49,868 bases of DNA from an uncultured Candidatus Actinomarina sp. (GCA_902595195.1 CACJPC010000006.1:1-49868); one strand, 5' to 3'. Shown: positions 22,326 through 27,830, numbered from the stretch's first letter. A program made the numbers and translations. The notes: generated by a model not told the origin, from the sequence alone.

Positions 22326-23105
22326 TTGAATCTAGATAACGAATTAATAATTGTTAAAACTGATAATAATAAATATTTAGCTGTTATAGATATTACAAAA
22401 GAATTTATAACAAATGAAGGTAAATTTAATTTCAAAGACATTAAGTCCATTCCAAGTATTGTAAAATCTTCAACTGATCAAACATTTAAAATTTACAGAC
22501 CAACATTTAAAGAATTTATATTACTTATGAAAAGAGGTCCTCAAATTATATATCCAAAAGATATTTCACAAATCGTTATTGAAGCTAACATATCCTCTTC
22601 AAGTAAAGTATTGGAAATTGGTACTGGTTCAGGAGCTCTAACTTTATACTTAATTAATATTTTAAATGGATCTGGTTCTTTAACTACCCTCGATATCAGC
22701 AAGACAAACCAGAGAAGAGCGAAGAAAACAATAGAACGATATTTATCAACACAAGAGATGAATGTAAATTACAGTTTAAAATTTATTAACCAAGAGCTCA
22801 ATAAATTTAATTTTTCTGATTACGTCAATGAAATAGATACTGTTATTACTGATGTCCCTGAACCTTGGGAATTTTTTGATAAAAATATCATTGACACCGA
22901 TCTATTTTGGGTTTCTTATTTACCATCAATTACTCAGGTTATAAAAATGAAAGAATGTTTGGAGTTAAATAAATTTGAAGACATAGAAGTTAAAGAGGTA
23001 ATTTTAAGAGATTGGTATTTAAATAAAAAAATTGCGAGGCCTAATAATAAACTGATATCTCATACAGGATTTTTGTTATCAGCTAGATATATTAAGTTTG
23101 ATTAG
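22326..23105 (+). CDS. trmI: tRNA (adenine-N1)-methyltransferase TrmI-like (TTG start)
   Basis: MKRGPQIIYPKDISQIVIEANISSSSKVLEIGTGSGALTLYL; VITDVPEPWEF. Confidence 0.88.
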   Translation: MNLDNELIIVKTDNNKYLAVIDITKEFITNEGKFNFKDIKSIPSIVKSSTDQTFKIYRPTFKEFILLMKRGPQIIYPKDISQIVIEANISSSSKVLEIGTGSGALTLYLINILNGSGSLTTLDISKTNQRRAKKTIERYLSTQEMNVNYSLKFINQELNKFNFSDYVNEIDTVITDVPEPWEFFDKNIIDTDLFWVSYLPSITQVIKMKECLELNKFEDIEVKEVILRDWYLNKKIARPNNKLISHTGFLLSARYIKFD

Positions 23106-23347
23106 GGCTCAATCATAATGCACTCACCAGGACATTCTTCAGCAGATTCTATAACTGCATCCTCTTGACCCTTAGGTACATTTGCTAAACCTTCTGCTCC
23201 TCCTACATTTCCGTGTTCTTCGGAAAATATTTTCTCGCCTTCTTTAACGTAGAATAGGCCATCATCTAGACCAACAAATACATCAGGAGCTATTTCTTCA
23301 CAGAGGCCGTCACCTGTGCATAAATCTTGATCTATCCAAACTTTCAT
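23102..23347 (-). CDS. Ferredoxin (3Fe-4S-like)
   Basis: MKVWIDQDLCTGDGLCEEIAPDVF...ESAEECPGECIMIE. Confidence 0.92.
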   Translation of the reverse strand: MKVWIDQDLCTGDGLCEEIAPDVFVGLDDGLFYVKEGEKIFSEEHGNVGGAEGLANVPKGQEDAVIESAEECPGECIMIEP

Positions 23348-23360
23348 AATGTATATATTA
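23345..23360 (-). promoter_or_regulatory. Predicted (near-)leaderless promoter of ferredoxin: TAATAT-N7-ATG
   Basis: Minus-strand TAATAT (23355-23360), 7 nt, ATG. Confidence 0.4.
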
Positions 23361-23434
23361 CAATAATGATGACTTATATAAATTTATTTCTGAGTATTTT
23401 TATTATGCAGATTTTAATTAAGTTGTAAAACGTT

Positions 23435-24253
23435 ATGAAAAATGTATTAAAAAGATTAATTGAATTAATTAATTTATTTAAAGATGATACAAAAATATCG
23501 ACAAACAAAATAAAAGATTCAATTCCTGATTACCGTGACTTAAATGAGCAAGCTTTTAGAAGAGCTTTTGAAAGAGATAAGTCGTTATTAAGATCTTTTG
23601 GATATTTAATTGAATACTCTAACGATAAATGGTCTCATGATGAATCAGGATACACAATGGGTGGTTCGTATGTTTTTAACAATATCAAAAAGAATGAAGA
23701 TATTAATGTGAATAGTTTTGTTAATACGTACCTATTATTAAAAAACAATATTTCTCTTCAAGGAAACAATGATAAGAAAACAGAAATCATTTCTAACATA
23801 ACTAAAGCAATAAATGAAAAAAGAAGATTGGGCTTTGAATATTTATCAAAATATAGAAAAGTAAAACCTCAAGGTTTGAGATTTTTTAATGGATCTTGGT
23901 ATTTAGGTGCTATTGAATCTAAAAAATTTAAAACATTCAAGCTTGATTACATCGAAAATTTAAAATTAGGTAACAAAGCAAATTTGTTTACAACTGAATA
24001 TAAAAACATGAGTTTCTCATGGGAAGACACAGACGATTTGATTTCGATTGAAATTAATATCCCAGACAATCTCTATCAAGTAAATAAAAATATTTTTTCT
24101 CATAAACTTGCAAGAAGTGATAAGAAGGAATTGAAATCAATAAAGACAAATGACACATATGGTTTATTTAAATTTTTACTACTTTGTGATGGGTCTTTTA
24201 AAATTATAAAATTTCATAATGCTCATTTACTAAAGGATTTAATTGATGTCTAA
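23435..24253 (+). CDS. pafB: WYL-domain transcriptional regulator PafB
   Basis: RLIELINLFKDDTKISTNKIKDSIPDYRDLNEQAFRRAFERDKSLLRSFG HTH, GSWYLGAIESKKFKTFKLDYI; upstream of pafC/tat/helY. Confidence 0.88.
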   Translation: MKNVLKRLIELINLFKDDTKISTNKIKDSIPDYRDLNEQAFRRAFERDKSLLRSFGYLIEYSNDKWSHDESGYTMGGSYVFNNIKKNEDINVNSFVNTYLLLKNNISLQGNNDKKTEIISNITKAINEKRRLGFEYLSKYRKVKPQGLRFFNGSWYLGAIESKKFKTFKLDYIENLKLGNKANLFTTEYKNMSFSWEDTDDLISIEINIPDNLYQVNKNIFSHKLARSDKKELKSIKTNDTYGLFKFLLLCDGSFKIIKFHNAHLLKDLIDV

Positions 24254-25106
24254 AAAAATTGATTTTAACTTTCTTCATAATTTTCTTCAATTTATACAAG
24301 CTAAAAATAAATGGAAAATTTCTGAAATACTAGATAATTTGGATATATCATTTAAAGAACTAATTTACATTCTTGATATAGTTTCTCAAATATATGTTGA
24401 TTTTGATGATGTTTTTGTTGATTATGAAATAAATGAAGATACAGAGGAAATTAATTTTTTGTTTAATGATTCTGTCTATGAACTTCTATCTATAAATGAT
24501 TCTGAATTATTTAATCTATATTACCTTTTAACAATTGAAGCAAATTTTCTCACTTTAAAAGACTCAAATAAAGAAATAATGGAATTTTATAATATTCTTT
24601 CAAAATATTTTAATATTGACGGTCTATTTGAGTCTGATGATAACTCTGAAAGCTTTTCTTTTGAAGAGATAAAAACAATTGAATATATAAAGCTTGGAAA
24701 AACAGAAAGTCAAACATATTTTGTAAAACCCGTAGCTTTAAAATTGAATCAAGATGGAAAAATATTAGAAGCACTAGATGTTGAAGAAAACTCTATAAAA
24801 ACATTTCTTATTGATCGTATAGTTGGTATTAACAAAGAAGAAAATACTAAACCTAAACTATCAACTCGATCAGCCTTAAAGGTCAAATATAAAATACATG
24901 ATATTAATTTTTTAAAAACCTTAGATAACTCAACATTTAATGTAATTAATGATAATTTAGAAATGAAATTCTATTCCTTTGAAAATGCATTAGATTTTTC
25001 ATTAAAAAACATACAATACATTAATGCAATAACTCCACTTAAACTTGTTGATGAAATTAAAATAAGGCAAAGTAATCTTTTGGAGATTTTGAATGAGTTT
25101 AATTGA
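24246..25106 (+). CDS. pafC: WYL-domain-like regulator PafC (divergent)
   Basis: Position directly after pafB and before tatAC; FLIDRIVGI segment; ATG at 24246 preferred over the track start at 24243. Confidence 0.75.
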   Translation: MSKKIDFNFLHNFLQFIQAKNKWKISEILDNLDISFKELIYILDIVSQIYVDFDDVFVDYEINEDTEEINFLFNDSVYELLSINDSELFNLYYLLTIEANFLTLKDSNKEIMEFYNILSKYFNIDGLFESDDNSESFSFEEIKTIEYIKLGKTESQTYFVKPVALKLNQDGKILEALDVEENSIKTFLIDRIVGINKEENTKPKLSTRSALKVKYKIHDINFLKTLDNSTFNVINDNLEMKFYSFENALDFSLKNIQYINAITPLKLVDEIKIRQSNLLEILNEFN

Positions 25107-25260
25107 ATTAGTTATTATTGTATTGCTAGCTCTCGGTTTACTTGATAAATCTAAAGTTTCAAAAGCAATTAAATTTCTTTCAAGTATTAATTCTTCAAAT
25201 AGAGAAATTATAGGTGATGATTCTATTGAAGAAAAATGGGTTTGGTTAGAAGAGGAGTGA
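25093..25260 (+). CDS. TatA/TatB-like protein, divergent, 55 aa (not in supplied ORF track)
   Basis: MSLIELVIIVLLALGLLDKSKVSKAIKFLSSINSSNREIIGDDSIEEKWVWLEEE*; one TM plus amphipathic helix, between pafC and tatC. Confidence 0.6.
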   Translation: MSLIELVIIVLLALGLLDKSKVSKAIKFLSSINSSNREIIGDDSIEEKWVWLEEE

Positions 25261-25261
25261 A

Positions 25262-25957
25262 GTGGAACAAAAACCATTTTTTGATCATTTTAAAGAACTA
25301 AATCAAAGAATTATTTTATCAATAGTCGTTCTTGTTTCTGCTTTTGTACTCTTTTATATTAACTACACAGATATATACAATTTACTTACAAATCCATTAG
25401 TAGAAGCAGGATACACAAAAGCGGATTTAGTAGCTTTTACTATTTATGAAGGATTTCAAGTCAAAATCTCCAACACACTACTCGTATCGTTTATTGGAAC
25501 ATTTCCTATTACTTTCTTAATAATTGCAAATTTTGTAAAACCAGCGATAAATGATCTCAAATCAAGTACTTATGTAATTTATTTAATTTCTTTTCTATTT
25601 CTTTTTTACAGCGGTTTATTTGCTGCTTATCAAACTTTTCCAATAGGCATAAAATTTTTATTACAATTTAATGAATCAGAAATTATATTAAGAACTCAAA
25701 ATTATTTTCAGTTAGTTTCTAGGATATCTTTAATTTTTGGAATTTCTTTTCAAACACCTCTAGTAATTTATTTTTTAATTAAAAAAAACATCATAAAGCT
25801 TTCGCTTTTCACAAACAACAGAAAAGAAGTATTTATTTTTGTATTGATTTTCTCAGCTATTTTAACACCAACAGGCGACCCAATAACACTATTTATATTT
25901 ACAATACCGCTGTATCTTTTAATTGAATTAGTTGTTTATTTAAATAGCAGAAATTAA
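25262..25957 (+). CDS. tatC: Sec-independent protein translocase TatC (GTG start)
   Basis: FFDHFKELNQRIILSI, SFQTPLVIYFL, AILTPTGDPITLFIFTIPLYLLIELVV. Confidence 0.93.
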   Translation: MEQKPFFDHFKELNQRIILSIVVLVSAFVLFYINYTDIYNLLTNPLVEAGYTKADLVAFTIYEGFQVKISNTLLVSFIGTFPITFLIIANFVKPAINDLKSSTYVIYLISFLFLFYSGLFAAYQTFPIGIKFLLQFNESEIILRTQNYFQLVSRISLIFGISFQTPLVIYFLIKKNIIKLSLFTNNRKEVFIFVLIFSAILTPTGDPITLFIFTIPLYLLIELVVYLNSRN

Positions 25958-25961
25958 TCAT

Positions 25962-27830
25962 ATGTTAGTTTTAGATCAATTTCAAATTGATGCAGTCTCT
26001 GATATAAAAAGTAATAATAATGTATTAGTTGTAGCACCTACTGGTTCTGGAAAGACCCTTATCGCTGAGAAATCTATAGAGTATTATTTAAAAAAAAATA
26101 AAAATATATTTTATACAACACCAATAAAAGCACTATCCAACCAAAAATATAATGATTTTAAAAAAGCAGGAGTTGATGTAGGCCTTTTGACTGGTGATAG
26201 AACTATAGACAAAAACAAAGATCTAGTTATTGCAACAACTGAAATATTGAGGAATATGATTTTCAGTAAAGATCAAAAACTAACAAATACAGGGCTAATT
26301 ATCTTAGATGAAGTACATTATCTAGGTGATACTGAAAGAGGCACAACTTGGGAAGAGATTCTTATTCACGCTGATTTAGATATTAAATTTTTATGCTTAT
26401 CAGCAACTATTAAAAATAAAAATGAGTTTTTAGAATGGATTGTTTCTTTAAGAGGTCCTACATCTTTGATTGAACACAATCAAAGACCAGTTCCATTAGA
26501 GATTTCTTTAGTTACTTCAAATAAGATGTCAAATAATATTAAAATTTTAAAATCAACAAATAAGAAAAAAGATAATAATAATTCTAAATTATCAAAATTA
26601 ACCCAAAATAGTAAAAAGCCTAATTTAGATGAACAGATTAACTATCTTGAAGATAAAAGTTTAACCCCGTGTATATTTTTTTATTTTTCCAGAGAAAGAG
26701 TAGAGTCCAAAGCTAGACAATTAGCAAATAAACGAAAAGTTGTTGATGAACATAAAATAATTAGAGATAAATTTCATGAAATATTTGATGACCTCGAAGT
26801 ATTAGATCATAGTTTATTAAATCTAGATGAACATTTATGGATGTGGTATAGGGGAGTTGCATTTCATCATGCTGGATTAGCGCCTATTGTAAAAGAATTT
26901 ATTGAATTTTTATTTCTAAATAAATATATAAATTTTTTATTTGCTACTGAGACATTAGCATTAGGAATTAATATGCCAGCAAAGTCAATTTATTTAGATA
27001 GATTAAATAAATATGATGGAATAAAAACAAGATTAATTTCTCAATCAGAGTTTCTACAGTTAACCGGAAGAGCAGGCAGAAGAGGAATTGACGATAAGGG
27101 ATATGCTTTTTTATCGTTTGATAAAAATATTAATCCAGAATGGTACTCTAATTTGTTTTCTTTGGAATCAAGTAGCTTGAATTCTGCTTTTTCTATAAAT
27201 TATTCTTCGATACTCAATTTGCTAAATATTTACTCTAAAGAGGAATCTATAGAACTTTTAAATAAAAGTTTTTTCGCATTTCAGAATTCATTCAAAATTA
27301 GAAGTCTTAAAAATGCATTTAATTCGAAATTACAAGTGCTTACAGATCTTAATTTTATAAATTCACATATGGGCGAAACTCTTATTGAAACTCACAGAGA
27401 TCAATTAATTCCATCTATATATTTGTATGAAAAAATAAAGACGTTAAAAACATTTGAATTCTATCTTATGTTTGTTTCATCGGGAATATCATCAAATATA
27501 TATGATGTCCCTTTAAATGATAAGTTTGATGAACTTTTGAGTTATTTTGAATCAAGTCTCGAAATTTTAAACAAATTAGAAAATAAAAATAATGTCAAAA
27601 AATATACAAATATAAATTTATCCTGGTTCAGTATATTTTATGAATTTTATAAAACTAACAATATTGAATATGTGGTTACTAAATTCAATATCAATATTGG
27701 AGATTTTATAAAAGCTGCAAAAGAAGGTTCTGAATTATCTAAGAAACTTTTTAATATCTATCAAGACCAAGAGTTTGATGCAATATATAATATGTTTGAC
27801 AATAAGCTAATTCAAAAATCTATGTCATGA
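25962..27830 (+). CDS. helY: HelY-like Ski2/Mtr4-family DEAD/DEAH-box RNA helicase
   Basis: VVAPTGSGKTLIAEKS, LDEVHYLGDTERGTTWEE, LSATIKN, FATETLALGINMPAKS, QLTGRAGRRGID; follows tatC. Confidence 0.92.
   Translation: MLVLDQFQIDAVSDIKSNNNVLVVAPTGSGKTLIAEKSIEYYLKKNKNIFYTTPIKALSNQKYNDFKKAGVDVGLLTGDRTIDKNKDLVIATTEILRNMIFSKDQKLTNTGLIILDEVHYLGDTERGTTWEEILIHADLDIKFLCLSATIKNKNEFLEWIVSLRGPTSLIEHNQRPVPLEISLVTSNKMSNNIKILKSTNKKKDNNNSKLSKLTQNSKKPNLDEQINYLEDKSLTPCIFFYFSRERVESKARQLANKRKVVDEHKIIRDKFHEIFDDLEVLDHSLLNLDEHLWMWYRGVAFHHAGLAPIVKEFIEFLFLNKYINFLFATETLALGINMPAKSIYLDRLNKYDGIKTRLISQSEFLQLTGRAGRRGIDDKGYAFLSFDKNINPEWYSNLFSLESSSLNSAFSINYSSILNLLNIYSKEESIELLNKSFFAFQNSFKIRSLKNAFNSKLQVLTDLNFINSHMGETLIETHRDQLIPSIYLYEKIKTLKTFEFYLMFVSSGISSNIYDVPLNDKFDELLSYFESSLEILNKLENKNNVKKYTNINLSWFSIFYEFYKTNNIEYVVTKFNINIGDFIKAAKEGSELSKKLFNIYQDQEFDAIYNMFDNKLIQKSMS

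Follow-up and report, generated by a model that had tools for sequence, protein, structure and literature searches.

The locus analyzed here raises the question of how the genes of a bacterial proteasome came to be missing from their usual place while the transcriptional regulator encoded beside them, PafBC, was kept. The window, i.e. the whole stretch of DNA that was analyzed, comprises 49,868 nucleotides from an uncultured Candidatus Actinomarina sp. (GCA_902595195.1 CACJPC010000006.1:1-49868), a member of a marine planktonic group. Its genome (G000) is that of a streamlined marine actinobacterium, with 0.93 Mb (932 kb) in 29 contigs and an estimated completeness of 79%. The group appears to be without the entire Pup-proteasome system, with one member, G001, in an opposite, partial state. 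Three functions that are usually studied jointly, namely tagging, Bpa-driven proteolysis and PafBC-driven DNA-damage transcription, thereby become separated. The best overall explanation, to which we assign a probability of about 0.78, is a stepwise loss of the Pup-proteasome system during which PafBC was kept as a DNA-damage activator.

The window locus and its counterpart in other Acidimicrobiia

By means of family searches we recovered the complete order that a preliminary description of this DNA had given, from trmI over a minus-strand ferredoxin to pafB, pafC, tatA, tatC and helY (Table 1). The same description had taken the Pup-proteasome block to be absent at this position, and indeed only the junction separates the start codons of the ferredoxin (23347) and pafB (23435), with no prc, dop or mpa gene. 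The family assignments of TrmI, TatC and HelY are unambiguous. PafB reached 41.9 bits with the WYL model against a curated cut-off of 21.8, and PafC 19.5 bits, i.e. below the same cut-off. Among public loci the nearest is that of OCS155 cluster bacterium AG-349-E07, whose proteins are 95-100% identical over the genes of the locus, and the remaining near ones belong to Ca. Actinomarina(les).

Table 1. Features of the locus in the window. Positions are counted from the first nucleotide of the window; G001 is a congener.
Feature	Position	Strand	Evidence and remarks
trmI-like tRNA methyltransferase	22326..23105	+	GCD14 PF08704, E 1e-22; syntenic in Acidimicrobiia loci; left flank of the lost block
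4Fe-4S ferredoxin, 81 aa	23102..23347	-	Fer4_15, E 2e-15; ancestral neighbor of mpa
Deletion junction, 87 bp	23348..23434	.	Replaces mpa-dop-pup-prcB-prcA-pafA of other Acidimicrobiia; prcB-prcA here in G001
pafB, HTH-WYL activator	23435..24253	+	WYL, E 1e-10; aligned to PDB 7p5x/9fnd; recognition helix F-x-R-x-F-E-R-D-K intact
pafC, partner WYL regulator	24243..25106	+	WYL, E 0.00098 (weak family score); position; 35-37% identity to congeners
tatA	25093..25260	+	Position and tblastn between loci; no Pfam/NCBIfam match
tatC	25262..25957	+	PF00902, E 2.8e-42
helY-like DEAD-box helicase	25962..27830	+	PF00270, E 2e-27; syntenic in the class; right flank

In the other Acidimicrobiia the order is trmI-ferredoxin(-)-mpa-dop-pup-prcB-prcA-pafA-(pafBC)-tatAC-helY, as found by tblastn in nearly all loci that had the ferredoxin and were long enough; pup, which is too short for such a screen, was examined in a separate Pup search. 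Since these relatives also place the ferredoxin between trmI and mpa, it is an ancestral neighbor and not a replacement for the lost block. The comparison with M. tuberculosis made in the preliminary description thus holds for the flanks and the gene order, but the better reference is provided by the other Acidimicrobiia, where the ferredoxin is present too. Compared with the actinobacterial Pup-proteasome locus, represented by M. tuberculosis and the Acidimicrobiia loci L011, L012 and L046, the window has the same flanks and order, i.e. trmI, (ferredoxin), ..., pafBC, tatAC and helY, but lacks mpa, dop, pup, prcB, prcA and pafA. The same junction without prc, dop or mpa, where the ferredoxin is directly followed by pafB, occurs in 21 public Ca. 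Actinomarina(les) loci.

The ferredoxin itself is unusually constrained compared with its locus neighbors. Within the genus (window positions 23102-23347 and loci L023-L045) it is 90-100% identical, and it shares 64-83% identity with other Acidimicrobiia, to which TrmI, PafB and TatC show 23-29% and HelY approximately 34%. Two loci from genomes titled Euryarchaeota archaeon (L026) and Bifidobacterium breve (L079) are of the Actinomarina and Acidimicrobiia types, and the records are probably mis-binned or mislabelled.

Pup-proteasome genes in the genome, the genus and the class

A search of the rest of G000 for Pup-proteasome genes, as had been proposed, left the claim of absence standing: no match to PF03136 (PafA/Dop), PF00227 (PrcA/PrcB), PF05639 (Pup) or PF10759 (Bpa) was found, and the best hit to the Mpa/ARC model TIGR03689 reached 154 bits, in the FtsH-like class, against a cut-off of 504.75 bits. 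The search was extended to all 42 genomes of the order to which the window belongs, which together make up one genus. PafA/Dop was found in none of the 29 genus genomes tested (G000 included), Pup in none of nine (G000 and eight congeners) as opposed to six out of six outgroups, and Mpa above the cut-off in none of the 42, where the best matches (~155 bits vs 504) are FtsH-class AAA proteins. PrcA/PrcB were absent from 41 of the 42 genomes and Bpa was found in a single one, the positive genome being the same in both cases, namely G001. In addition, direct tblastn over 1.06 Mb of G054 (93% complete) identified no mpa, dop, pafA, prcBA or bpa.

The absence is a loss in the lineage and not an assembly dropout, because most of the genus agrees, including congeners more complete than G000; it is these congeners that carry the argument, since G000 is only 79% complete. 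That the block is missing merely from an incomplete or mis-joined assembly is an idea to which the fragmentation of G000 into 29 contigs, and the lack of rpoB from it as well, might lend some color. It is nevertheless extremely improbable. The contiguity of the locus refutes it for the slot itself, both here and in the 21 public loci that share this junction, and congeners at 90-94% completeness are likewise without the genes, as is the directly searched sequence of G054. The block is thus gone genome-wide and from nearly the whole genus, and PafBC, whose genes pafB and pafC lie next to the junction, is kept.

At the level of the class, we surveyed 375 genomes (at least 85% complete, plus those of the study itself). 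PF03136 was found in 354 and PF00227 in 353 of these; of the 21 genomes without the former and the 22 without the latter, 17 and 16, respectively, belong to the genus. PrcAB without PafA/Dop occurred only in G001. A review states that the Pup-proteasome locus is present in all Actinobacteria and that Bpa occurs strictly together with the 20S proteasome (PMC8223512); Actinomarina contradicts the first statement and agrees with the second. The literature that we searched held no account of the proteasome content of Actinomarina.

As a consequence, proteolysis in the genome of the window would have to rest on other proteases, FtsH being the only one examined, and a PafBC response would run without proteasomal clearance of its products. 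It would seem, then, that a genome can keep PafBC even when it has no proteasome to remove what this regulator induces.

Elsewhere in the class, the genomes G058, G354, G358 and G361 are likewise missing from both the PF03136 and the PF00227 lists. The Ilumatobacteraceae locus L095 (JAJTFJ010000032.1) has no proteasome block and apparently no pafBC between the ferredoxin and tatC, in what looks like an independent and larger loss. It was considered as a parallel case keeping PafBC and rejected, as this interval holds a lepB-like gene and no recognizable pafBC. Furthermore, a third, weaker PF03136 protein (E ~1e-121) was found in G026 (C60:12500-13681) and G031 (C17:305-1582), two genomes from a single family (f5), on contigs other than those of the main pair.

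The 20S and Bpa genes of congener G001

In G001 (87% complete), one contig of 104 kb carries the uninterrupted series trmI-ferredoxin-prcB-prcA-pafB-pafC-tatA-tatC-helY, and Actinomarina synteny is seen to either side. The genes for PrcB (248 aa) and PrcA (213 aa) exactly occupy the slot from the ferredoxin to pafB and keep the ancestral order, the first base of pafB directly following the prcA stop codon. Both proteins exceed the NCBIfam cut-offs of the beta and alpha subunit models (207 vs 191.9 bits with TIGR03690 for PrcB, 244 vs 139 bits with TIGR03691 for PrcA) and match the solved Rhodococcus and M. tuberculosis proteasomes. The alignments retain the catalytic threonine region, GDRR, the following lysine, GSGS and DSAT. 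The bpa gene (PF10759, E 1e-44) is found at a second, unlinked locus, and its product ends in RPGQYL, i.e. with the C-terminal GQYL tail. Eighteen other genes of this block are collinear in G054, where only bpa is missing, with ~94 bp in its stead. Contamination as the source of prcBA and bpa was rejected on the basis of the synteny at both loci and of composition, GC3 being 0.16-0.20 for prcB, prcA and bpa and 0.13-0.19 for their neighbors.

No PafA/Dop, Pup or Mpa was found in the 87% of G001 that is available to profile searches. A Cpa- or Mpa-like ATPase as an alternative partner of the 20S core was rejected, as the sole AAA match is of the FtsH class, and there was no second AAA match of the kind expected of a Cdc48-like Cpa. 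The G001 lineage probably has a pupylation-free proteasome, with a 20S core opened only by Bpa and with no tag, ligase or dedicated ATPase, its sister lineages having lost the 20S core and Bpa together. If the G001 proteasome does work through Bpa, as its gene content would imply, the Bpa-gated core would break down proteins that are unfolded, or specific ones, and need neither tag nor ATP to do so, in the way that Bpa acts on HspR in M. tuberculosis (PMC8223512). An HspR homolog is present in the genus (G054). The preliminary description had called the block cleanly absent, which is true of the window and of nearly the whole genus but does not amount to one clean event in the genus, as G001 keeps prcBA in the slot and bpa elsewhere.

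Incomplete 20S systems have a precedent. Propionibacterium acnes has been reported with prcAB and without ARC and Bpa (PMC4254994), and going by that publication it resembles G001 in having a 20S core without its ATPase; it differs from G001, which has Bpa and where PafA/Dop and Pup were searched for and not found. The losses known from reviews are those in which pupylation is kept and the 20S core dropped (PMC8223512), as in the Corynebacterium type, a secondary loss from the same locus (PMC3511204, PMC8223512). G001 is the inverse of this type, having 20S and Bpa without pupylation, whereas the genome of the window has lost both pupylation and the 20S core. No description of a 20S proteasome with Bpa but without pupylation was found in the literature searched. 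Tagging on the one hand, and the barrel with its tag-independent activator on the other, are thus separable in nature, as seen in G001, and the question of what a bacterial proteasome serves without a tag becomes testable.

The rpoB-rpoC tree divides the genus into two main clades, in one of which G001 is basal, its exact place within that clade having a support of 76. A position as a basal relic, sister to all other members of the genus, was rejected (AU p 0.0012). A nested position of G001 likewise came out of the tree built from the locus proteins, with weak support and with different neighbors. Given this nested position, either two losses of 20S and Bpa or one loss and one re-gain are needed, and the two are equal in number of events on the tree. 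From one 87%-complete genome we infer that pupylation was lost first and 20S together with Bpa later, at least twice; copies of pup, pafA, dop or mpa may have been relocated to the missing 13% of G001, which would undercut the tag-free state.

A single loss of 20S and Bpa at the base of the genus, followed by re-acquisition in G001 through recombination from an unsampled relative, would account for the nested position with no more events than two losses. We consider it rather unlikely, since both loci have conserved flanks, the position of prcBA is demonstrably ancestral, the composition of the genes matches that of their neighbors, and the incoming DNA would need to have carried prcBA but not pup, dop and pafA, with which these genes are interleaved. 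Position, synteny and composition hence favor, without proving, retention in G001 with at least two losses elsewhere. Slightly less likely still is that the genes in G001 represent the non-functional remains of a system in collapse, as might be surmised from an AAA complement in which just an FtsH-class match takes the place of Mpa or a Cpa-like ATPase. Against decay, the reading frames are intact with their catalytic residues, PrcA is 45-48% identical to the outgroups as compared with 24-29% for the neighboring TatC, PafB and TrmI, and Bpa is retained with its GQYL tail although encoded at an unlinked locus.

According to the stepwise reading, the ancestor of Ca. Actinomarina would have had the standard Acidimicrobiia Pup-proteasome locus, of which the tagging branch (mpa, dop, pup and pafA) would have been lost first in the course of genome streamlining. 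What remained would have been the 20S core (prcBA) together with Bpa, a ring that opens it independently of tag and ATP, and this state is presumably still found in G001. Later, although encoded at two unlinked loci, the core and Bpa would have disappeared jointly from the other lineages sampled, that of the window among them, with no fewer than two such losses on the rpoBC tree. PafBC would have been retained because its job needs no proteasome: PafB is predicted to contact a TTGTC-type element that precedes the -10 by 12 nt, recruiting the housekeeping polymerase after DNA damage, with recA, a LysM gene divergent from lexA and a gene for a 166-aa protein as putative targets, alongside LexA.

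PafBC and its candidate promoters

The PafB recognition helix FRRAFERDK, as aligned to 7p5x, is invariant across the genus and includes the residues F42, R44, F46 and R48 named for PafB (PMC6789036). Actinomarina PafB is short, and the positions of R211 and R214 (M. smegmatis numbering) are occupied by K and Y in the window and by K/I/N and Y/N/K in the genus, Y196 being kept throughout and R181 everywhere except for a K in G001. These two WYL arginines are required for ssDNA binding by M. smegmatis PafB (PMC11804915), a requirement known from this species only and not clearly family-defining. Because the arginine pair is lost, the signal sensed by Actinomarina PafB may differ from ssDNA.

A search for a PafBC-type motif upstream of repair genes, including uvrBAC of the window, had also been suggested. 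The window gave no excess over shuffles, no motif assignable to uvrBAC and no LexA box, but elsewhere in G000 such elements are clear: the mycobacterial-type WTGTC-N12-TWNNNT, with fixed spacing, stands before recA, the lexA-divergent LysM gene and the 166-aa gene, in the first two cases together with LexA boxes. Upstream of recA, 30 genomes of the genus have two promoter-like elements, i.e. a -35/-10 pair with the LexA box GAACNNNNGTTC in its spacer and, downstream of it, WTGTC-N12-TTWAAT (TATATT in G001). A scan of 13 genomes for WTGTCWTA-N9-TWWAAT yielded 26 matches as compared with 12 for the reversed control. Twelve of the 26 were at recA, three were 29-30 nt before the orthologous 166-aa gene in different contexts, and the other 11 were at control level.

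The LysM gene divergent from lexA has both a PafBC-type site and a LexA box in seven genomes (G000, G052, G020, G054, G047, G018 and G001), and a LexA DNA-binding domain was found in 39 of the 42 genus genomes. In the congeners where this was examined, nrdR lies downstream of the LysM gene, an arrangement that we take to recall lexA-Rv2719c-nrdR of M. tuberculosis. The locus in the genome of the window is L287 (G000:C4:9001-17000).

The mycobacterial PafBC target is tTGTCRgtg-8nt-TannnT, the recA P1 or RecA-NDp promoter (PMC5656591). Actinomarina resembles this system in the recognition helix, in the 12-nt spacing between TTGTC and the -10 and in having recA under both LexA-type and PafBC-type elements. 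It differs in lacking a conserved RGTG behind TTGTC (and, in many cases, the A of the -10), in the substitution of R211/R214 of the ssDNA pocket and, in G000, in having no proteasome partner. Since PafBC and these promoters persist together, they are best read as a working regulon, and PafBC probably continues to act as an activator in the response to DNA damage. The substituted sensor arginines, the shortness of PafB and the lack of a PafBC motif upstream of uvrBAC could alternatively mean that PafBC no longer serves DNA damage here and regulates something else. This is unlikely, though of the alternatives weighed in this study it is the least so, given the invariant recognition helix and the fixed-spacing promoters beside LexA boxes at recA and the lexA-divergent LysM gene.

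Lastly, the 166-aa gene, for whose product no credible family match was found in a family profile search, has a PafBC-type promoter in three divergent lineages, which makes it a candidate new DNA-damage gene. In G054, TTGTC-N12-TTATAT precedes the orthologous gene by a comparable distance. The protein (NPWVEGSLIVCPGAR...) is encoded at L221:1530-2030, L205:1531-2031, L227:1530-2030 and L267:1297-1794.
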